Shown here: piece after piece, positions 6,225 through 60,497 of the stretch
How positions within the stretch are numbered: position 1 is the first letter of the stretch
Layout: every line of letters starts with the position of its first letter
Assembly: GCF_003709565.1 (NCBI RefSeq)
Contig: NZ_QNRC01000009.1
Coordinates: 62,001-126,000 of the forward strand
DNA length: 64,000 bases
Source: Paracoccus sigandri
GTDB taxonomy: Bacteria; Pseudomonadota; Alphaproteobacteria; Rhodobacterales; Rhodobacteraceae
Direction of reading: 5' to 3'
Translations under genes and position numbers: made by a program
Notes under the pieces: generated by a model
Seen by the model: the letters and a program-made list of their open reading frames with translations, nothing else
What the model was told of the DNA's origin: nothing
Database searches by the model: none

Positions 6225-7837
6225 GGTCGGATATCCGTTTGCGCCGCCCCGCCGCGCACCGCCAGCCAGTCGCGCAGGACATGGATCAGCAATGCGCAGG
6301 CGGCCAGCGCGGCGACGAGGAAGGTCAGGAAATAGGCGTCGTTATAGGCCATGACCCATGACTGGGTCGCGGCCTCCTGCGCGATGCGGGCAAGGCCTTC
6401 GGCCTTCAGCGCCGCGGGATCGGCGATCCCGGCCGCCAGCCCCGCCATCCGCGCCGCGATCGCGGCCGAGGTGGTGGCGCTGGTCGCGGTCAGCTGCTCG
6501 GCCAGCATCTGGTAATGCGCGGCCTGCCGGTCGTTTATCAGCGTGGTGAACAGGCCCGCCCCCAGCACGCCGCCGATGCTCTGGGTCGAGATGAAGACGA
6601 TCACGAAGGACAGGATGTATTGCGGCCCCCGGCGCAGCGCCGAGATCAGCCCCGCCATCATGGCGGGCGGCAGGAACAGCATCCCCGCGAAGCCGATCAT
6701 CGCCTGGCTCAGCACCATCTGATGGGGGCGCGTGTCCGGCGTCGCCTGGCTGTCCATCAGCGCGCCCGCCGCGATCAGGATCAGCGCGGCAAGGTGCAGC
6801 CAGGGCTCGCGTCCCGGCTTCATCCAGGCGATGCAGGCCAAGCCGCCAAGGACGCTGGCCATGACGATGATGGTAAACAGCGTCACCATCTGCGAGGGCG
6901 CCACGCCAAGCGCCGCGAACATGCGCGGGGCGCCGGTGCTCTGTTCCGACAGGATCAGCCGGAACAGCAGCAGGGCGCCGGTCAGGTGCAGCATGGCGGG
7001 GCTGACCAGCCAGCGGATGTCCAGGATCGGCGCCTTGCGGTTCAGCTCGATCATCACCGCGCCGGCCAGCGCGGCCGCCGCCCCCGCCATCAGCCAGCCG
7101 ATCCAGGGCGCGTCGCTCCAGAAATGGATCGGCCCCATGACGAAGCCGATGGTCAGCCCGGCAAAGCCGAAGGCGATCAGCGCGAAACTGGCGAAATCCA
7201 GCGGCTGGATGACCTTCTGATGCGGCACCGGCCGCAGCGGCAGCAGGAAGACCAGCGCCAGCGATACCATCGCCAGCCCCAGCGACACCAGGTGCAGCCA
7301 TGTCAGCCCGCCGTCCCCGATCAGCGCCGGAGAGACGACGCGGGCCAGCATGGGTCCGGTCATCAGCGCCGTCATCGCCGCGGGCAGGCCCAGCCGCATC
7401 TTGCCGTCCTGCGACAGCGGCTCCAGCATGTACATGAAGGCCAGCGTCGACAGCGGCGCCGAGGCCGCGCCCGACAGGAACTGCACCACCACCGCCGAGC
7501 GCAGGTCGCTGACCCAGACCGAGGCGAAGGCCACCGCGACATAGGCGACGATCCCGATCTCGGCAAAGCGGCGCAGGCCGAACTGGGTGCGGATCTTGAT
7601 CAGCATCAGCGGCAGCGCGGCGCGGGGGATCATGTAGGCGGCCATCAGCCAGCTGGCCTCGGTCGTGGTGATGCCCAGATCGCCCGCGAATTGCGGGATA
7701 TTCGCCGAAACGAAACCCTGCCCCAGCCCCTGCGACAGGCCCAGCACCACCGCCGCCGACATATAGGCCAGCGCCTGCGGCACGGGCAGCGGCGGCGGGG
7801 GTGGGGGCATGGCAGGGGCTTCGGCGGGCGCGCTCAT
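6221..7837 (-). CDS. DHA2-family MFS multidrug efflux pump (EmrB-like)
   Basis: Proton-driven exporter, 538 residues, with about 14 hydrophobic segments as in the DHA2 (14-helix) drug:H+ antiporters. An unusual proline run precedes the first helix. It overlaps marR upstream (7834-7837) and the adaptor gene downstream (6221-6224), both as ATGA, so the three proteins are translated from one message and should form a tripartite pump with an outer-membrane channel encoded elsewhere. Control is expected from the MarR protein through operators at 8274-8306. Confidence 0.9.
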   Translation of the reverse strand: MSAPAEAPAMPPPPPPLPVPQALAYMSAAVVLGLSQGLGQGFVSANIPQFAGDLGITTTEASWLMAAYMIPRAALPLMLIKIRTQFGLRRFAEIGIVAYVAVAFASVWVSDLRSAVVVQFLSGAASAPLSTLAFMYMLEPLSQDGKMRLGLPAAMTALMTGPMLARVVSPALIGDGGLTWLHLVSLGLAMVSLALVFLLPLRPVPHQKVIQPLDFASFALIAFGFAGLTIGFVMGPIHFWSDAPWIGWLMAGAAAALAGAVMIELNRKAPILDIRWLVSPAMLHLTGALLLFRLILSEQSTGAPRMFAALGVAPSQMVTLFTIIVMASVLGGLACIAWMKPGREPWLHLAALILIAAGALMDSQATPDTRPHQMVLSQAMIGFAGMLFLPPAMMAGLISALRRGPQYILSFVIVFISTQSIGGVLGAGLFTTLINDRQAAHYQMLAEQLTATSATTSAAIAARMAGLAAGIADPAALKAEGLARIAQEAATQSWVMAYNDAYFLTFLVAALAACALLIHVLRDWLAVRGGAAQTDIRP

Positions 7838-9360: not shown

Positions 9361-10788
9361 TTGAACAGTTCCCCAAGCGCGGATCGTGCAGGTCCGATCC
9401 TGCATTTCCGCGGCCACGGCCCCGAGGGGCTGCGCCTTGCCGCGATCCTGATCCGTCCCCAGGACGATCCGCCCCCCGGCGCATTGCGGCTGCAAGCGGG
9501 CGATGTCGCCGCCGCCAGGCTGGCCGAAATCGACGGGCTGGTCCTGTGGCGCTATGATTTCACCCTTGGCCCCGAGGATGACGGCTATGAGCTGGAGGGC
9601 CGCCTGCATCCGGTCCGGACCGCGCTGGAGGGCGATCTGCGTATCGGCTTCGTGTCCTGCAACGGCGAGGAGAACGGCGATCTGGACCGCGACGCGGCCG
9701 AGCGCAACCTGATGTGGGACCGGCTGGTCGCCCAGCACGAGCACGAGCCGCTGGCGCTGCTGCTGCAGGGCGGCGACCAGATCTATGCCGACGAGGCGAC
9801 CCATGGCCATCCGCTCAGCGAGGACTGGCCCGACCGGGTGCCCAAGAACCCGACCGAGGCCGAACTGGCGGACCTGACCCGGCACCTGCGCCACCGTTTC
9901 GCGCGCCGCTACCTGTCGGTGCTGACCCCGGCCCCCTGCGCCCGGCTGATGGCCGAGGTGCCGACGCTGTCGGTCTGGGACGATCACGACATCTGCGACG
10001 GCTGGGGCTCGCTGAAGGACAGCCGCACCCGCTCGGCGGTGGGCCAGACGCTGTTCCGCGTCGCGCGCGAGACCTATCTGCTGTTCCAGCATGGCGCGAC
10101 CGAGGCCGACATCCCCGAGCTGTTCCTCGATCCGCAGGGCCGCAGCCTGGGCTGGTGCCGGCAGCTGCCCGGCCTGACCCTGCTGGCCCCCGACCTGCGA
10201 TCAGAGCGGCACCGCCGCCGGATCATGGGCGATGCCGGCTGGCAGGGCGTCGAGGCGGTCGATCCGCCGCCGGGCCAGACCTTCCTGGTCTCCAGCGTGC
10301 CGCTGCTGGGGCCGCGCCTGTCGGTGATCGAGGCAATCATGACGGCGATCCCGCGGATGCAGCATTACGAGGACGACCTGCGCGACCAGTGGCAAAGCCG
10401 CACCCATCGCGACGAATGGCGCCGGATGCTGCGCGAGGTGCTGCGGATGCGTGCCAGCGGCCCGGTCACGGCGATCTCGGGCGAGATCCACCTGGCCACG
10501 CGGGCGATCATGGACGGCGACGAGGGGCGCGTGCATCAGCTGGTCGCCTCGGGCATCTCGCATCGCGCGCCGCCCAGGGCCTATGCGCGCTGCCTGGGCC
10601 TTCTGGCGGGCCTGGGCGAGGCGCCCCTGCCCGGCCACCCGATCCGCATCCTGCCGCTGCCGGGCCAGGCGCACCGCTATACGGCCGAACGGAACTTCCT
10701 GCTGCTGGAGCGCCGGGACGGGCGCTGGCAGGCGATCTGGCACCTGGAAGACAGCGGCCGCAGCCCGGCGCTGGACATTTCCGACTGA
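9361..10788 (+). CDS. PhoD-like metallophosphatase
   Basis: A metal-dependent phosphatase of the PhoD/calcineurin-like superfamily, 475 residues. Metal-ligand motifs are visible in order: [17 protein letters not shown] (137-144), WDDHDI (206-211) and SGEIH (373-377). Unlike classical PhoD I see no Tat signal, so a cytoplasmic phosphodiesterase or phosphatase role is more likely. The start is uncertain: I use TTG at 9361 with CGAGG upstream; no ATG lies near the conserved N-terminus. It converges on copZ with a 4-base gap. Confidence 0.75.
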
Positions 10789-52784: not shown

Positions 52785-55079
52785 ATGAGGTTCAAGGCGC
52801 AACGCTTGGCATCAAGCACCGCGATCGGACTGGCGCTGGCGATCCTGCCCGGCCAGCTTGCCGCGCAGGACACCGGCGAGACGCTGGTGCTGGACGATAT
52901 CGTCATCACCGCGCAGGAACAGGTCAAGCAGGCGCTCGGCGTCTCGCAGATCACCGAGGAGGATCTGGAGAAGACCCCGGTCGTCAACGACATTTCCGAG
53001 GTCGTCCGCAAGATGCCCGGCGTGAACCTGACCGGCGCCACCGCCTCGGGGCAGCGCGGCAACCAGCGCCAGATCGACATTCGCGGCATGGGACCGGAGA
53101 ACACGCTGATCCTGATCGACGGCAAGCCGGTCATGTCGCGCAACTCGATCCGCATGAGCCGCAACGGCGAACGCGACACGCGCGGCGATTCCAACTGGGT
53201 GCCCGCCGAGATGATCGAGCGGATCGAGGTCCTGCGCGGACCGGCTGCGGCGCGCTATGGCTCGGGTTCGTCGGGCGGCGTGGTCAACATCATCACCAAG
53301 CGCCCGGACACTTTCTCGGGCCAGGTCGGAATGCATTACAATTCGCCGGAAAGCCGCAAGGAAGGCGACACGGTGCGCTCGAATTTCATGCTGGCCGGCC
53401 CGGCGGGCGAGAATTTCACGTTCCGGCTGTTCGGAAACCATAACAAGACCGACGCCGACGCGCCCGACATCAACCTTGTCCCGGTGCTGGACGATGACGG
53501 CAATCCGGTTCTGGACGAGGAGGGCAACCCTACCTTCCGCAACCTGGCGGGACGCGAGGGTGTCGTCAACAAGGACCTTGGCGCGCTGCTGACCTGGCAC
53601 GTCGCCCCCGGCCATGAGATCGACTTCGAAGCCAATTTTTCGCGTCAGGGCAACATCTTCGCCGGCGACACCATGTTCGGTTCGGTCATCGAGGACGTGA
53701 ACGGCACCAACCTGATCGGCACCGAGACCAACCGGATGTATCGCCGGACGCTGGCCCTTACCCATCGGGGCGAATATGATTTCGGTGACTCGCTCAGCTA
53801 TCTGCAATGGGAAAACACCCGCAACACCCGTTTCTGCGAAGGCACGGCGGGCAGCGTAGAGGGCTCGATCACCGGCTGCGTCGATACGGATGGTGACGGT
53901 GAACACGATGCGCCCGGCTACAGTACCGCCAAGCTGGATAACGTAGCCGCTAAAACCGAATGGAACATGCCCATGGATCTGGGCACAAAGCGCAGCCGCG
54001 TGACCTTCGGTGCCGAATATCGGGGCGAATTCATGGAGGACTCGGTTTCGATCCGCGGAAACCTAAACAATCCGGACGGGACGCCCAACGAAGAACTGGG
54101 AGAAGAGTTTGATATCGATCCAGTTGGCGAGAACCGCGATCCGAAGGTCGACCAGCACACGATCGGTCTCTATGTCGAAAGCAATATCGAATGGAACGAC
54201 CGGCTGACGCTGACCCCGGCGCTGCGTTTCGACTATAACGACAATTTCGGCAGCGCGTGGTCGCCCAGCCTGAACGCCACCTATGCCTTCAATGACGAAT
54301 GGTCGATGAAGCTGGGCGTGGCGCGGGCCTTCAAGGCGCCGAACCTGTTCCAGCTGAACCCGAACTATGTCTACACGACCATGGGCAACGGCTGTCCCTA
54401 TGTCGATGGCGAACGCCTCAGCGGTCCCTGCTATGTTCTGGGCAACCCGGATCTGGAAGCGGAAACCAGCGTCAACAAGGAAATCGGCGTCGCCTATCAG
54501 GGCTTCAGCGGCATCGACGCCAGCCTGACCTACTTCCACAACGACTACAAGAACCGCATCGCCTCGGGCCAGATCCAGTACAACCCCGGCGCCGAGACCA
54601 ACCGCCTGTTCCGCTGGGACAACCAGGAAAAGGCCGTCATCTCGGGGCTGGAGGGCAATTTCTCGACCCCGCTGGGTGATCGCTTCGCCTTCAACGCGAA
54701 TTTCACCAAGATGATCAAGTCCGAGGACGGCGACGGCCAGCCGCTGAGCCTGGTGCCGGATCATACGATCAACGCCTCGCTGGACTGGTACGCGACCGAG
54801 GCGCTGACCCTGACGCTTTCGGCCACCCGCTATGGCGAGATCGAGGCGGCCACCGCGTCGAACACCACCGGCGGCGTCTACGAGGACCCGGAAAATCGCC
54901 CCGGCTATACGTTGGTCAATCTGGGCGCAAGCTGGGAGATCACCGATACCGCGCGGCTGTCGGCCGGGGTGACGAACCTGTTCGACAAGCAGATCCTGCG
55001 CACCAATACCAGCGACGGCGCCAACACCTTCAACGAACCGGGCCGGGCCTTCTATATCTCGCTCAACAAGTCCTTCTGA
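52785..55079 (+). CDS. fepA: TonB-dependent catecholate siderophore receptor
   Basis: 764 residues with a signal peptide (cleaved near AAQ, residues 26-28), TonB-box-like region (ETLVLDDIVITA), plug domain and 22-strand barrel ending in Phe (LNKSF). The plug closely follows E. coli FepA: MPGVNLTG, GQRGNQRQIDIRGMGPENT, RGERDTRGD-type stretch (NGERDTRGDSNWVP) and RIEVLRGPAAARYGSG. Imports ferric-enterobactin-like complexes, the product expected from the NRPS at 28.8 kb. CGGAGTG precedes the ATG. Confidence 0.95.
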   Translation: MRFKAQRLASSTAIGLALAILPGQLAAQDTGETLVLDDIVITAQEQVKQALGVSQITEEDLEKTPVVNDISEVVRKMPGVNLTGATASGQRGNQRQIDIRGMGPENTLILIDGKPVMSRNSIRMSRNGERDTRGDSNWVPAEMIERIEVLRGPAAARYGSGSSGGVVNIITKRPDTFSGQVGMHYNSPESRKEGDTVRSNFMLAGPAGENFTFRLFGNHNKTDADAPDINLVPVLDDDGNPVLDEEGNPTFRNLAGREGVVNKDLGALLTWHVAPGHEIDFEANFSRQGNIFAGDTMFGSVIEDVNGTNLIGTETNRMYRRTLALTHRGEYDFGDSLSYLQWENTRNTRFCEGTAGSVEGSITGCVDTDGDGEHDAPGYSTAKLDNVAAKTEWNMPMDLGTKRSRVTFGAEYRGEFMEDSVSIRGNLNNPDGTPNEELGEEFDIDPVGENRDPKVDQHTIGLYVESNIEWNDRLTLTPALRFDYNDNFGSAWSPSLNATYAFNDEWSMKLGVARAFKAPNLFQLNPNYVYTTMGNGCPYVDGERLSGPCYVLGNPDLEAETSVNKEIGVAYQGFSGIDASLTYFHNDYKNRIASGQIQYNPGAETNRLFRWDNQEKAVISGLEGNFSTPLGDRFAFNANFTKMIKSEDGDGQPLSLVPDHTINASLDWYATEALTLTLSATRYGEIEAATASNTTGGVYEDPENRPGYTLVNLGASWEITDTARLSAGVTNLFDKQILRTNTSDGANTFNEPGRAFYISLNKSF

Positions 55080-55181: not shown

Positions 55182-57125
55182 GTGCTTAATGGAAATGCAG
55201 TAACGATCAGCCTGACGATGCCCCTGAACCGGACGCCTTCGACCTTTCTGGCGCTTTTGTCGTCACTCCGGCTGCGCCGCGCGCAGGCGCTGCTCTATTA
55301 CCTGCTGGCCGATTCCGACCGCGTCCACCGGGTCGAGAAGGTCGTGGACCTGTTCTGGCAGGACTCCGACGGCCAGCGCGCGGCGGCATCATATCGGCAG
55401 GTGGTGCGCCATATCCGCCGCGCCACCGGCGATGCCGGCGGGGTCGCGCTGGATACCGGCGGCGGGCAGATCGCGCTGCGGCTGGCCGAGCCCTTCAGCC
55501 TGTCTGATTATTTCCTTGCCGGCCTTTCCGCCAATCCCTGGGACGCGGCTGCGGCCGAGCGGATCCGGGAAATCGTCGGCTTCACCCTCCGGCTTCAGGG
55601 CATCAGCAGCTCTTTCGACAGCTGGCTGGCGATCACCCGCTCGACGCTGTTGTCGGTGGTGCGCCGGGCGCTGGACCGGCGGCTGGCCGTCGCGGGCGAG
55701 GACGCGGCGGGCGAGACCCGGCTGGCAGCGGAATTCGCGCTGGAGCTGGAGCCCGCCAACGAGGTCGCCGTCCGCTATCTGATGTCGCAGGACTGGCAGG
55801 CCGGGCACGCCACCCGCGCCATCGAGCGCTACAACACGCTCTATGCCCATCTGGCCGAGGAATTCGACCAGGAGCCCGAGGCCGAGACGATCGAATTGCT
55901 GGCCGCGATCAAGCTGGACCCGGTGGCACCGCCCCGGCGGCAGGCCGCGACCGACCGGCGGCCGCAGATCAGCCTTGCGGTCGCGCTGCTGCCCGCCCAG
56001 ACCGGGGACCGCGAGCTGGCCAGCTTTCACACGGTGCTGTTCGCGGACCTGCGGATGCGCATGGGGCGGTTCCGCGAATGGCGCGTGATCGAGGCCGAGG
56101 GCCCGGAACGGCCCAAGGCGCGCATCACCCTGCGGCCGGTCCTGGCCCAGGGCCTGCACCGGCTGTTCGTCGAGGTGCAGCGCGGAGAGGATGGCGATCT
56201 GCTGTGGTCAGAGGTGATCGACCAGCCCGAGGCGGATTGGGAGGCGAAGGTCCGGGTGCTGCTGGCCAATATCGCCAATGCGCTGTCGATCGTGGTCTCG
56301 GACCGCTCGCTGACCGATTTCGGTGCGGCGATCTATGACCGCTGGCTGAAGGCGCAGGCGCTCCTGGATGCCTGGTCGCCCGAGACCGAGGGCGAGGCGC
56401 TGGCCATGCTGCGCGAGATCACCGAGGAATCGCCGCGCTTCGGCCCCGCCCATGCGGAACTGGCCGGGGCGCTGAATGTGCGCCACGTCCTGCTGCCCGG
56501 CACCCGGCAGACCGAGGACGTCAAGCAGGACGCGCTGCATCACGCGATCATCGCCGTCTCGACCGATCCGATGGACACCCGCGCCCACCGGGTCCTGGGC
56601 TGGTGCTATTGCCACAAGGGGGAATTCGGGCTGGCGGGGTTCCATTTCGACCAGGCGCTGAACCTCAACCGCAGCAGCCCGCTGACGCTGGCCTCCTGCG
56701 CGCTGGGTTTCGCCTTCGCGGGCGAAGAGGCCCGCACCGCCGAGCTGGTGGCCGAGGCGCGGCGGCATTCGGCCGTGGTCGAGCCGTTCCACCTGATCTA
56801 CCTGGCCGCCGCCGACTATCTGCTGGGCGACTACGAAAGCGCGGCCGAACAATGCGGGCGCGGCGCCGGGCTGATGCCGACGGTCGGCGGCTGGCACAGC
56901 GCGGCGCTGTGGCAGCTGGGCCGCCGGGACGAGGCCGCGCGGCGCCTGGCCGCCTATCTGGACGAGATCCGGGCCGAATGGTGCGGCCCGCCCGCGCCCT
57001 GCGACGGCGACATCCTGGACTGGTTCACCTCGATCTTTCCGCTGCGCGACGAGCAGATCCGCCTGGACCTGCGCGCCACGCTGGAAGGGATCGCCCGCGC
57101 CGCGACGCCGCGCCGCGCCGGCTAG
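55182..57125 (+). CDS. BTAD/SARP-like regulator with C-terminal TPR region
   Basis: 647 residues. N-terminal OmpR-like winged helix (RRAQALLYYLLADSDRVHRVEKVVDLFWQ... then YRQVVRHIRRATG), followed by a bacterial transcriptional activator domain (about 120-235, ending YNTLYAHLAEEFDQEPE), a middle domain and TPR-like helices (about 400-600). No adenylate-cyclase or AAA domain is visible. Such activators often switch secondary-metabolite clusters. The start is uncertain: GTG 55182 or ATG 55218, neither with a clear ribosome site. It converges on the peroxidase operon, sharing the CTAG stop. Confidence 0.7.
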   Translation: MLNGNAVTISLTMPLNRTPSTFLALLSSLRLRRAQALLYYLLADSDRVHRVEKVVDLFWQDSDGQRAAASYRQVVRHIRRATGDAGGVALDTGGGQIALRLAEPFSLSDYFLAGLSANPWDAAAAERIREIVGFTLRLQGISSSFDSWLAITRSTLLSVVRRALDRRLAVAGEDAAGETRLAAEFALELEPANEVAVRYLMSQDWQAGHATRAIERYNTLYAHLAEEFDQEPEAETIELLAAIKLDPVAPPRRQAATDRRPQISLAVALLPAQTGDRELASFHTVLFADLRMRMGRFREWRVIEAEGPERPKARITLRPVLAQGLHRLFVEVQRGEDGDLLWSEVIDQPEADWEAKVRVLLANIANALSIVVSDRSLTDFGAAIYDRWLKAQALLDAWSPETEGEALAMLREITEESPRFGPAHAELAGALNVRHVLLPGTRQTEDVKQDALHHAIIAVSTDPMDTRAHRVLGWCYCHKGEFGLAGFHFDQALNLNRSSPLTLASCALGFAFAGEEARTAELVAEARRHSAVVEPFHLIYLAAADYLLGDYESAAEQCGRGAGLMPTVGGWHSAALWQLGRRDEAARRLAAYLDEIRAEWCGPPAPCDGDILDWFTSIFPLRDEQIRLDLRATLEGIARAATPRRAG

Positions 57126-57850
57126 CGGCACATGTTCGTCGCATAGATCCCGACCGAGCGGTGGAAGGCGCGCATCGGGCTGGTCATGATCTCGTTCTTG
57201 ACGTCGTCGGCGGGCAGCCCGCCGCCATCCTTGAAGACCGAGCGTTCGGCCACGGCCTCTGCCATATGCGTCTCCAGAGCGGCCTGCAGTTCCGGGGTCC
57301 ACTTGTCCGGCGGCGCCTTTCCGGCGAATTCGCGCACCATCGCGAGGATCTCGGATTTCAGGCTGGCCAGCATCAGCGACTTGTCCAGCTCGTAGGACAG
57401 CGGCGGGCGAAAGCCCTCGGCCTTGCCCTGCCGTTCCAGCATCTCCTGGGTGATCTCCAGCGTCTTGTCCGAAGGCACGACCAGGATGCGGCTGTTGCGG
57501 TCCGGGCCGCAGGCATCCCGGCTGCGGCTCTCGAACTCGATGCGGACGGTGGTCCGCTCCAGGATCGCGGCGCGTTCGGCATCGCTCAGACCCGCGCTGC
57601 CGTCCAGCGCCGAGAAATCCTGTACCATCAGCGCCGCCCTGACCTGCTCTTGCGCGCGGTCCAGTTCCTGCCTGGACAGCTGCGCCTTGCCGCGGATCGA
57701 CAGCTCGACCATCAGCCGGCCGATGAATTCCACGTTCAGCGGGATCGCCCCCGGCGCCGGCTGATCGGCGATCGTGCCATCGGGCAGCAGCCAGCGCTCG
57801 GTCTGGTCGACCTCGGCGCCCACGATCACATAATGCTTTTCGTCACTCAT
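57122..57850 (-). CDS. Unknown protein of the YcaO-peroxidase operon
   Basis: 242 residues, no signal peptide, no membrane segment and no family I recognise. The N-terminal part is acidic and beta-rich, the middle and C-terminal parts mainly helical; one cysteine at 114 and one next to last (C241, ending TNMCR). ATG at 57850 lies one base after the peroxidase stop with GGGAG upstream, so it is part of the operon. It could be a maturation partner or the protein substrate. Confidence 0.65.
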   Translation of the reverse strand: MSDEKHYVIVGAEVDQTERWLLPDGTIADQPAPGAIPLNVEFIGRLMVELSIRGKAQLSRQELDRAQEQVRAALMVQDFSALDGSAGLSDAERAAILERTTVRIEFESRSRDACGPDRNSRILVVPSDKTLEITQEMLERQGKAEGFRPPLSYELDKSLMLASLKSEILAMVREFAGKAPPDKWTPELQAALETHMAEAVAERSVFKDGGGLPADDVKNEIMTSPMRAFHRSVGIYATNMCR

Positions 57851-57851
57851 C

Positions 57852-59291
57852 TCACACTCCCTCTCGAACAAGATTGATCAGCTCCAGCATCGTTGCCGGC
57901 ACCGGCAGCGCGCGCGCCGCCTCGGGTTCGGGCGCAAGCCGCACGCGGCGCATGGATTCGGTGATCGAGCGGCGCAGAAGCGCGCTGCCCAGGGGGCCGA
58001 AACCGCCGGCCTGGCCATGCAGCTGCGCCTCGACCATCAGCGCCTGGAACAGCGGCCCCCATTCGATCACCGGACCGGTCAGGCGGACCGGCGCGTCGGG
58101 ATAGCGGGCGGCGAAGTCGCGGGCCATGGCCTCGGGGCGCAGCTGCCGGGGCCAGTCGTCGGGCAGCCTTGCCAGCGCGGCGCGCAGTTCGTCATTGCCC
58201 AGGCGCAGCGGCTTGGCCTGGATTTCCGTCTGATCGTCCATCTGGATCACGGCGGCGGCGCTGACCGGCGCGCGCAGTTCCGGCGCGACGCTGGCCGACA
58301 GCCCGCTTATCGGCCCGCCCGGCCTCTGGCCGAAGAACAGCGGCCAGTCGACATGCCAGTCGGTCTCGGCCTCGCTGGGGCCGAAGCCGGTCTTCAGCAG
58401 GGCCGACAGATTGTGCAGCCCCGAGCGGCCCAGCTGATAGGCGGCCAGCGGCATGGCGTGGAAGGCGCGGAACAGCCCCTGCAGCAGCGTCGCCTCGTCC
58501 AGGTGCCATTCGTCGGCCAGCGCCTCTTCGGGCAGGGCGGCGATCCGGGGATGCAGGAAGCGCGGCAGCACGTCGGTGCGGATGATGCCGTGCCAGACCC
58601 GCACCGCATGGCCGCGCGTGGCGACATAGGCGGCGAAGGGCGGCATTCCGCCCGCCATCAGCCGGCGCGCGCAGAGATTGTGGAACTGCATCCAGGCGAC
58701 GGCCAGCTCGTGCAGCATCAGCGTGTCGCGGTTGCGTTCGTCGTAAAGCGCGCGGAACGGCACCGGGTCCGGGTCGCGCCCGGCGCCGCGGCCATAGACC
58801 CGCGCCAGCCGCGCCCCCGGCGTCAGGCGGAACAGCATCGTCCCCGGATCGTAGAGATGCGACAGCATCATCGGGCCGGGGCCATAGACCGTCTCCAGCG
58901 TCAGCGGATTGTCGATCAGGTTGTAGTGATGTTCCCCCAGCAGCGCCGCCGCGCCGGTCGCATTGCCGCGCGTCACATGCGGCACGCTGTCCTGCGTCAC
59001 GCTGCTGCCGATGTCATGGCCCATCAGCTGGCCCAGATAGGTATAGCCCGCCGGCACATGCGAAACCTCGGCCAGGCAGGCGCGGCGCCAGGCGGGTGTC
59101 GTGCGCAGCAGGATCTCGGGCATCTGCCGCGCCCCTTCGACGCGGATGTCCGCGGCCGACGGCTGCACGGCGGCGTTCCCGCCCGCATCCGCGCCATTGA
59201 CGGCGACGGGCAGGGCCGTGTCGATCGGGCCGGGGCTGCAACCGAAACGACAGACGGGGGCGAAGCGTCGGGTGGCGGTCGTCTGTGGCAT
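57852..59291 (-). CDS. Animal-type haem peroxidase family protein
   Basis: 479 residues. The peroxidase-cyclooxygenase superfamily core is visible: distal region YLGQLMGHDIGSS (His92) and the proximal stretch YDERNRDTLMLHELAVAWMQFHNLCARRL, with His204 followed by Asn as in the animal enzymes' EHNR. No signal peptide is seen, so it is likely cytoplasmic. Oxidises halides or organic substrates with hydrogen peroxide. GGAGG supports the ATG at 59291. Sits between the YcaO-like gene and the unknown protein gene. Confidence 0.82.
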   Translation of the reverse strand: MPQTTATRRFAPVCRFGCSPGPIDTALPVAVNGADAGGNAAVQPSAADIRVEGARQMPEILLRTTPAWRRACLAEVSHVPAGYTYLGQLMGHDIGSSVTQDSVPHVTRGNATGAAALLGEHHYNLIDNPLTLETVYGPGPMMLSHLYDPGTMLFRLTPGARLARVYGRGAGRDPDPVPFRALYDERNRDTLMLHELAVAWMQFHNLCARRLMAGGMPPFAAYVATRGHAVRVWHGIIRTDVLPRFLHPRIAALPEEALADEWHLDEATLLQGLFRAFHAMPLAAYQLGRSGLHNLSALLKTGFGPSEAETDWHVDWPLFFGQRPGGPISGLSASVAPELRAPVSAAAVIQMDDQTEIQAKPLRLGNDELRAALARLPDDWPRQLRPEAMARDFAARYPDAPVRLTGPVIEWGPLFQALMVEAQLHGQAGGFGPLGSALLRRSITESMRRVRLAPEPEAARALPVPATMLELINLVREGV

Positions 59292-59315
59292 TGCATCCTC
59301 CATCTTGTTGCGGCC

Positions 59316-60224
59316 CTAGAGAAAGGGCAGGCCATGCGCCGCGTCCTCTGCGGGCGCCGGCAGGTCGGGACGGCACAGCCAGACGGCAAGCGGGCCGTCG
59401 GCGGGGGTAATGGCGTGAAGCGAAAGCCCGGTCCCGAACCATTCGCGCGGCGCGGGCAGCGCGGCGGGCTGGACCGGCGTCACCGGCGGGCTGGCCGGCA
59501 GAAGCTGCGGCCCGCGCCGCGCATAGGCCAGGATGCGGTCCTGCACATGCTGCAGTTCCGCCTCGCGCCCGGTGCGCCGCGCCGCCATCAGCTCCATCAG
59601 GTTCATCTCCATCAGGAACAGCTCGCGCAGCGCCTTGCGCGCGGCGCGCAGCGGATCGGGATCGGCGCCGAAGCCCAGGACCGGGTCCTGCCCCTCGGGG
59701 CTCATGCTGCGGCAGATCATCACCGTGGGCCCGGCGCTGCCCGCGATCCGCCACCAGCCCGTGCGCCGCCTCAGCGCCGCCCCCCAGCGCGCCGTCTCCA
59801 GGTGCGAGCCAAGCCCCTGCCCCGCCAGCCAGCGTTCCGACAGCGGCTGCGCCTCGGCCAGCCCGTGCCACCAGCGCAGCACCGCAAATCGTTCATAGGC
59901 CTCCAGCAGCGCGGCCTGGCGGGCGCGGTCGGCATCGGGATGGGCGGCGATCCCGTCGCGCCGGGCCGCGAAATCATTCGCCCCCACATGCGCGCGCGCG
60001 GCCAGCGCGTGAAGCTCGGCGGTCTCGCCCAGGCAGCGCAGGAAGGCCGCCTCGCGCGTGCGGCCGGCGCCGCTGGCGGTGCGGCCGTCCAGCGTCAGGG
60101 CCTGCAGGATGTGGATGCTGGGGGTAAAAAAGCTTTCGCGCCAATCATATCGTTGCCAATAGCCAACCAACTCGTTCGGCTTGCGCTGCAATTCGGTCAT
60201 TGTCGTTCTCACGTCGCGGGGCAT
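59316..60224 (-). CDS. YcaO-family protein
   Basis: 302 residues. The ATP/Mg-binding glutamates of YcaO proteins can be placed: GRTREAAFLRCLGETAE (E67, E70), then DGIAAHPDADRARQAALLEAYERFAVLRWW (E108, E111, R112, W118, W119), and DPLRAARKALRELFLMEM further on. YcaO enzymes phosphorylate peptide backbone amides to make azolines, thioamides or amidines in RiPPs. It is shorter than typical members (about 400) and no partner E1-like or precursor gene is evident. Start ATG 60224, or 60200 with GAGAA upstream. Confidence 0.75.
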   Translation of the reverse strand: MPRDVRTTMTELQRKPNELVGYWQRYDWRESFFTPSIHILQALTLDGRTASGAGRTREAAFLRCLGETAELHALAARAHVGANDFAARRDGIAAHPDADRARQAALLEAYERFAVLRWWHGLAEAQPLSERWLAGQGLGSHLETARWGAALRRRTGWWRIAGSAGPTVMICRSMSPEGQDPVLGFGADPDPLRAARKALRELFLMEMNLMELMAARRTGREAELQHVQDRILAYARRGPQLLPASPPVTPVQPAALPAPREWFGTGLSLHAITPADGPLAVWLCRPDLPAPAEDAAHGLPFL

Positions 60225-60497
60225 TTTCTGCTCATGTCAGCGATGTTCGAAACCGAACGTGATCTTTTCGTGATACACGCCCCTTGCGGTGAACCAAGCG
60301 GTTTCTTGCCTGACCCGCGAAATAGCCCCCGCCCCTCCGATATGTATGCACAATCAAGCCGTTGCGGCGCGCCCGGCCCGGCGAAAATCTTCACGATCTG
60401 CAACTCCGCGGGGCCATTTCCTGTCGCGGTCCGGTTGCAGCCGGGGCCGGAATTCTCCATACAGGGCGGGTTGCCGCTGTAAGAATGTGTAGGAAGT
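60225..60497. other. Divergent promoter region of the YcaO operon and the polysaccharide locus
   Basis: 273 bases between two divergent starts. It contains the inverted repeat GTTCG-AAAC-CGAAC (60245-60258) just upstream of the YcaO-like gene and the AGGA ribosome site of the sugar dehydrogenase. Codon composition of the open frames here is not that of a gene. Confidence 0.45.

Follow-up and report, generated by a model that had tools for sequence, protein, structure and literature searches.

What does a YcaO protein do when it is encoded in the same operon as a haem peroxidase of the animal type, and on what would the two enzymes act? This question is raised by a locus of Paracoccus sigandri in a stretch of 64,000 nucleotides (the window; contig NZ_QNRC01000009.1, positions 62,001 to 126,000). 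YcaO enzymes alter the protein backbone itself, and few of them have known substrates. In the literature compared here, YcaO products are oxidised by flavin dehydrogenases. The locus holds four genes, called here Y (the YcaO-family protein), X (the haem peroxidase), U (an orphan protein) and R (a regulator), so that a proposed substrate, both enzymes and a regulator are found in one 5-kb cassette, and in culturable Paracoccus species. The cassette looks like a new two-enzyme system for the chemical remodelling of the tail of U.

Conservation of the cassette and a natural fusion of Y and X

The strongest sequence evidence linking the two enzymes comes from Shimia sp. CNT1-13L.2, where Y and X are a single uninterrupted open reading frame (ORF) of 800 aa (L034:5479-7881). 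From this natural fusion we consider it very probable that the two enzymes act jointly; the fusion also puts X in the cytoplasm, beside an ATP-dependent enzyme. The arrangement of Y-X-U with a convergent R recurs in about 35 Rhodobacterales loci from Paracoccus, Phaeobacter, Shimia, Roseobacter, Pelagimonas, Primorskyibacter and other genera, with order and strand kept and the flanking genes changing from locus to locus. Where the contig is long enough, Y, X and U are always together and R is convergent with them, with one exception. This is Paracoccus SMMA_5, in which R lies about 42 kb away from Y-X-U on the same plasmid (NZ_CP102356.1 28584-30482; L065 3585-5483) and the box upstream of Y, described below, is retained. 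The pairwise distances of Y, X, U and R correlate (r 0.91-0.97), which demonstrates co-inheritance but not function. In the flank comparison no other gene family beside the cassette recurred beyond a few loci.

A scan of 84,980 species yielded 26 loci, all from named Rhodobacterales or from genomes labelled Alphaproteobacteria. When plasmids were searched by tblastn, Y, X and U were found in the same six records (five of Paracoccus and one of Phaeobacter inhibens), X also matching, far more weakly, six further records that carry other haem peroxidases; one match within the genus falls at coordinates of the Paracoccus aminovorans plasmid NZ_LN832562. In 395 genomes of the family, a profile search detected U in P. 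sigandri itself and in five other genera. Apart from P. sigandri itself there was no match to U in 385 genomes of the class and 398 of the phylum, and there was none in viral contigs. To judge from these sequences the cassette is mobile; its distribution is patchy and it is often borne on plasmids.

The original prediction for this locus listed Y, X and U as three tightly packed genes with gaps of 24 and 1 bases, and these coordinates and gaps agree with the ORF list (Table 1). The 24-base gap is the one obtained with an inner ATG of X at 59291, the upstream ATG leaving 12 bases to Y. A single base separates the stop codon of X from U when U is started at the ATG at 57850, the mechanical ORF opening at a TTG at 57871. 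Missing from that gene list was R, which is part of the same cassette and whose stop codon overlaps that of U in the palindrome CTAG (57122-57125). The trio is by no means confined to the strain in which it was first noticed, as the neighbourhood comparison finds it well outside P. sigandri.

Table 1. Genes and sequence elements of the cassette, with positions in the window
Feature	Position	Strand	Description
Y	59316-60224	-	YcaO-family protein, 302 aa; first gene of the operon
X	57852-59303	-	Animal-type haem peroxidase, 483 aa; signal peptide not evident
U	57122-57850	-	Orphan protein, 242 aa, from ATG; proposed substrate, a folded carrier with an invariant C-terminal tail
Codons of the invariant C-terminus of U (RSVGIYATNMCR)	57125-57160	-	Proposed modification site; Cys241 penultimate
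R	55182-57125	+	BTAD/TPR (SARP-like) regulator, 647 aa; convergent with U
11-bp direct repeat, ATCACG-AAAAG-ATCACG (ATCACGAAAAGATCACG)	60257-60275	-	Upstream of Y; putative binding site of R

The YcaO protein and the haem peroxidase

Y matched the Pfam YcaO family PF02624 with 47.8 bits (cut-off 25.7, E 1.7e-12). Among solved structures, a profile made from 12 Y sequences found TruD, MusD and LynD first (1e-7 to 2e-6), other YcaO proteins being weaker. Five glutamates, Glu67, Glu70, Glu108, Glu111 and Glu201, are invariant in 21 sequences, and Glu108 and Glu111 align with Glu199 and Glu202 of E. coli YcaO in an hhalign match that is short, weak and confined to that motif. The E202A variant of the E. 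coli enzyme is the mutant that was co-expressed for comparison in the study of ribosomal protein uL16 (PMC13063428). The P. sigandri genome also holds a second, full-length YcaO domain in an open frame of 714 aa (C72:111251-112246).

The X protein of the window, taken alone, had no significant match in Pfam, the animal haem peroxidase family PF03098 being missed. This family was matched by 17 of the 21 scanned members of the X family (best 1.1e-8), and a profile of X matched the peroxidase domain of DUOX1 (3e-5). The AlphaFold model of X has a mean predicted local distance difference test score (pLDDT) of 72.9, and its top matches are animal haem peroxidases and cyclooxygenases only, namely the cyanobacterial TDX16 peroxidase (Foldseek E 4.7e-6), myeloperoxidase (MPO; E 5.2e-6), lactoperoxidase and cyclooxygenases. 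The VIA comparison gave a Z of 17.0 with a root-mean-square deviation of 3.8-4.2 over 352-360 residues. Gln92, His96, Asp97, Arg190 and His282 are invariant in 21 sequences, and from their motifs we take Gln92 and His96 to be the distal Gln and His, Arg190 the catalytic Arg and His282 the proximal His. X keeps its haem-site residues and is a putative haem-binding, peroxide-using enzyme.

These analyses agree with the identities first proposed for the two proteins: a YcaO protein with its ATP-site glutamates in place at 59316-60224, which the PF02624 search and the invariant residues bear out, and an animal haem peroxidase at 57852-59291, where the agreement comes from the family members and the predicted fold, the window protein itself lying below detection.

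Other haem peroxidases of this type were seen along the way. P. sigandri has a separate animal haem peroxidase domain in an open frame of 2211 aa (C40:14180-16147), and a Spirosoma plasmid (L051 5764-9163) has a run of genes for another bacterial haem peroxidase, a YegP-family protein and a ThiF-type adenylyltransferase, possibly with a different pair of peroxidase and activating enzyme. Beside other bacterial haem peroxidases, in Microvirga, Spirosoma and Nostoc, no YcaO protein is annotated; the Nonomuraea record is unannotated.

The frozen C-terminus of U

What is new here is that the C-terminus of U is its most conserved part and that a Cys is always penultimate in it. Identity between the U proteins of different loci falls to 23%, and in every locus the protein ends R[SA]VGIYx[TS]x[MA]C[RDNK]-stop, the residue before the Cys being Ala in loci L032 and L049. 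The last 12 residues reach 4.0 bits per column, the mean being 2.6, and none of 100,000 random sets of 12 columns came up to them. This Cys is the only invariant one in U, and the termini of X and Y show no conservation comparable to that of the U tail. Third codon positions in the tail vary but the residues do not, and therefore the constraint acts on the protein. The overlap of U with R reaches 66 bp in some marine loci and is 4 bp or nil elsewhere, with the tail unchanged. That the conservation is a by-product of this overlap was consequently rejected, the tail being equally conserved where the overlap is 4 bp or absent.

The original prediction could not assign this third protein, and none of 23 members of its family matched Pfam. 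For the U protein of the window, no match was found in Pfam or NCBIfam at E values up to 1, including the nitrile hydratase-like leader (NHLP) and Nif11 precursor families, and none among PDB sequences or viral folds. The model of U is confident (mean pLDDT 87.6), and compared with PDB folds it gave nothing better than E 0.99. The VIA rows for U, all with a Z of 6.1 or less and covering a helical part, were taken to be common helical arrangements.

The regulator R and its box

R contains a BTAD domain (PF03704, 27.0 bits against a cut-off of 22.1) and TPR repeats, and matches the DNA-binding family PF00486 only at E 0.069, below the cut-off. In 25 of 26 loci the 200 bp upstream of Y contain a repeat of the form TCAC-N7-TCAC, the background being about 0.005 per 200 bp. 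With other spacings (3 to 12) the TCAC repeat did not occur in more than two loci. Classical sites of Streptomyces antibiotic regulatory proteins (SARPs) share this 11-bp period (PMC10972967). These results suggest that R may switch the operon on through the 11-bp repeats, its putative binding sites. In the whole P. sigandri genome there are only four sites of the form WTCACRN5WTCACR, and a search for a wider R regulon found that none of the three further repeat sites clearly fronts a telling gene.

Further features were seen in several loci. In Shimia CNT1-13L.2 (L034 4459-5432) the Y-X fusion has its repeat 1 kb upstream, in front of an extra gene (302 aa, with an SH3-like start) that runs into the fusion; an identical 19-bp box is also present at 10659, near the start of R. 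In one marine clade (L040, L042, L046 and L048, about 6588-6616) a second TCAC repeat is found in the intergenic gap between Y and X, and the one preceding Y is on the opposite strand. Four loci, all marine (L006, 11140-12514 on the minus strand; L035, 10765-12160 on the plus strand; L043; L045), have a gene pair beside the cassette that encodes a 94-aa protein followed by a secreted one of about 365-400 aa, which has an EF-hand-like motif, DxDGDG, and a possible outer-membrane barrel. In L006, L043 and L035 this pair has its own TCAC-N7-TCAC box and therefore may belong to the R regulon.

U as the proposed substrate of Y and X

We hold with moderate confidence that the cassette is a dedicated post-translational modification system and that U is its gene-encoded substrate, because it combines a frozen Cys/Tyr tail, an ATP-dependent YcaO protein and an oxidising haem enzyme with no other conserved ORF. 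The protein families, the catalytic residues, the conservation of the cassette, the Y-X fusion, the invariant tail and the box can be read directly from the sequences; the role of U as substrate, the site, the chemistry, the order of the steps and the function are what the proposal would add to them. U would be a folded carrier of about 230 residues ending RxVGIYxTxMCx. Y, using ATP, would activate the backbone amide before Cys241, and most likely Met240-Cys241 would close to a thiazoline. The thiazoline is favoured because the nearest relatives of Y form it and because an Ala before the Cys, as in L032 and L049, is tolerated by thiazoline chemistry; thioamidation, as in uL16, would be the alternative. 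X, using H2O2, would then oxidise the tail, either taking the thiazoline to a thiazole, a role usually filled by a flavin dehydrogenase, or acting on the conserved Tyr236, and the whole operon would be turned on by R via its repeats. The nearly invariant core and the lack of a transporter or protease gene point to a fixed product, cofactor-like or protein-bound, such as a cofactor that is bound to a protein or derived from a peptide, rather than to an antibiotic that diversifies. Perhaps, and this we put forward only tentatively, it represents a new class of built-in cofactor, in which the YcaO protein and then the haem peroxidase act on the GIYxTxMC tail to give a heterocycle derived from the Cys, an oxidised or cross-linked Tyr, or both, kept on U or released, as a redox cofactor or a signal.

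There is precedent for YcaO enzymes that recognise folded partners. For E. coli YcaO, uL16 is a substrate only when folded, its tertiary structure being needed, and the modification takes place without a recognition element (RRE) of the kind used for ribosomally synthesised and post-translationally modified peptides (RiPPs) (PMC13063428), and an azoline-forming YcaO recognises long structured leaders by protein/protein contacts (PMC12455567). The idea, already part of the original prediction, that the operon installs and then oxidises a backbone modification fits the Y-X fusion, the linkage with U and the invariant tail with its penultimate Cys; its chemical part stays conditional, and neither U as the likely substrate nor R and its box had been seen. 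Upstream of Y there is no conserved small precursor ORF, save for trivial matches between close relatives. An E1-like or RRE partner, a small precursor and a flavin mononucleotide (FMN) dehydrogenase, as found in azoline clusters of the thiazole/oxazole-modified microcin (TOMM) and RiPP type, do not recur across the loci, where only Y, X, U and R do, and tfuA, the companion of TfuA-associated thioamidating YcaO proteins, is not among the recurrent neighbour families either.

Alternative explanations

A number of observations weigh against U being modified in this way. Y falls below the cut-off for SagD-type TOMM cyclodehydratases (TIGR03604: 31.1 bits against 219.25), neither a recognisable RRE within its 302 aa nor a partner protein was found for it, and we found no precedent in the literature for a haem peroxidase as an azoline oxidase. 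One of the two patterns used in the genome scan, AF[HY]R[SA]VGIY, is part of the U tail and biases the set towards conserved tails; loci found via X, by whole-profile searches or by tblastn, all independent of the tail pattern, end in the same tail, and no search pattern included the final TxMCx. The main weakness is that we infer both the modification and its chemistry and that the tail of U is modelled as a helix (residues 225-239, the pLDDT being about 86 at 231-240 and about 54 at the final two positions), so that the conserved tail could be a structural or docking element. This helix is also the starting point of the main rival, a possible but doubtful account in which U is a scaffold or partner like TclI, the Ocin-ThiF/RRE scaffold of micrococcin, its C-terminal helix docking Y and X in turn and the substrate being encoded elsewhere. 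TclI does use one helix to recruit both a cyclodehydratase and a dehydrogenase (PMC10634744), U resembles it in length and is well folded, and the lack of a recognised RRE in Y would be consistent with such help. However, U matches no PqqD/RRE or ThiF family, no other substrate candidate recurs near the cassette, and conservation that peaks at the very end of the chain, with an invariant penultimate Cys, is unusual for a docking helix.

That the tail is instead released as a bioactive peptide, U being a RiPP precursor with an unusually long leader whose tail a host protease would cut off and a general transporter would export, appears unlikely. YcaO enzymes are typically found in RiPP pathways, SARP-like regulators usually govern secondary metabolism (PMC10972967), and the patchy, often plasmid-borne cassette would suit such a role, but the tail is nearly invariant across genera where RiPP precursors tend to diverge rapidly (PMC13063428), and no protease, transporter or immunity gene is recurrent. 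We regard as very unlikely a role in peroxide or redox defence, the second option of the original prediction, in which X would remove peroxide, U would be a Cys-based sensor or client, and Y would act in repair or maturation. The haem peroxidase and the single invariant Cys of U are compatible with it. We know of no role of YcaO proteins in peroxide defence, U has no recognised redox fold, no catalase, peroxiredoxin or OxyR-type partner recurs at the loci, where further gene families do not recur beyond a few, and none of the four cassette proteins matched the PADLOC anti-phage defence models, so that nothing favours this option.

Two neighbours of the cassette in the window lie outside this argument. 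A FepA-type TonB-dependent siderophore receptor (52785-55079), just upstream of R and on the same strand, is not kept with the cassette elsewhere. A nitroreductase-family protein (PF00881; 51767-52441, minus strand) weakly resembles BluB and NADPH nitroreductase models and belongs to the fold class of azoline dehydrogenases; as a candidate for the missing azoline dehydrogenase it was rejected, being in no recurrent flank family of the loci in other genomes.

Comparison with known systems

Each of the enzyme families is already known, YcaO-dependent modification is a known kind of reaction, and the chemistry of the cassette is what we infer. In the open-access literature we found no description of a pair of a YcaO protein and a haem peroxidase, and this is not proof of novelty, as subscription papers were largely outside the search. 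If the proposal that Y and X act on U is true, the coupling of a YcaO protein with an animal-type haem peroxidase would bring an oxidation chemistry into the YcaO field, and the animal-type peroxidases of bacteria would gain a candidate protein substrate.

X resembles the members of the animal haem peroxidase superfamily (MPO, lactoperoxidase, DUOX, cyclooxygenases and the cyanobacterial peroxidases) in its fold and in the positions of the distal Gln/His, the Arg and the proximal His. In contrast to them, it has no evident signal peptide, has Gly in place of the Asp that forms the haem ester in MPO, and is tied to a YcaO protein by operon and by fusion. MauG, a periplasmic, c-type di-haem enzyme, completes the tryptophan tryptophylquinone (TTQ) cofactor of methylamine dehydrogenase. 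It is like the proposed X in being a haem enzyme that oxidises residues of a protein substrate with peroxide equivalents, but it differs in its unrelated fold, its periplasmic c-type di-haem nature and the fact that no YcaO protein is involved.

On the side of Y, the azoline-forming cyclodehydratases TruD, LynD and MusD (the D proteins of TOMM and cyanobactin pathways) are its top profile matches and share the conserved Glu motifs and Cys as the likely target. Unlike these, Y has only 302 aa, has no fused RRE or E1-like half and is below the SagD family cut-off, and its cassette has neither a small precursor nor a flavin dehydrogenase, a haem peroxidase being present instead. E. coli YcaO, which thioamidates uL16, stands alone without an RRE, as Y does, and modifies a folded protein, but its substrate is a ribosomal protein, it has no oxidase partner, and Y is only remotely related to it, the hhalign match spanning one motif (PMC13063428). 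The MprC/MprE systems, whose leaders are nitrile hydratase-like, offer a parallel for U with their long structured leader, protein/protein recognition and C-terminal core (PMC12455567); in contrast, U is about three times longer than such a leader, matches no family and has a nearly invariant core. Finally, R has the BTAD and TPR domains of SARP-type regulators and, like them, direct repeats with an 11-bp period upstream of the target operon (PMC10972967), but it is alphaproteobacterial, no NB-ARC domain was detected in it and its repeat core is TCAC.

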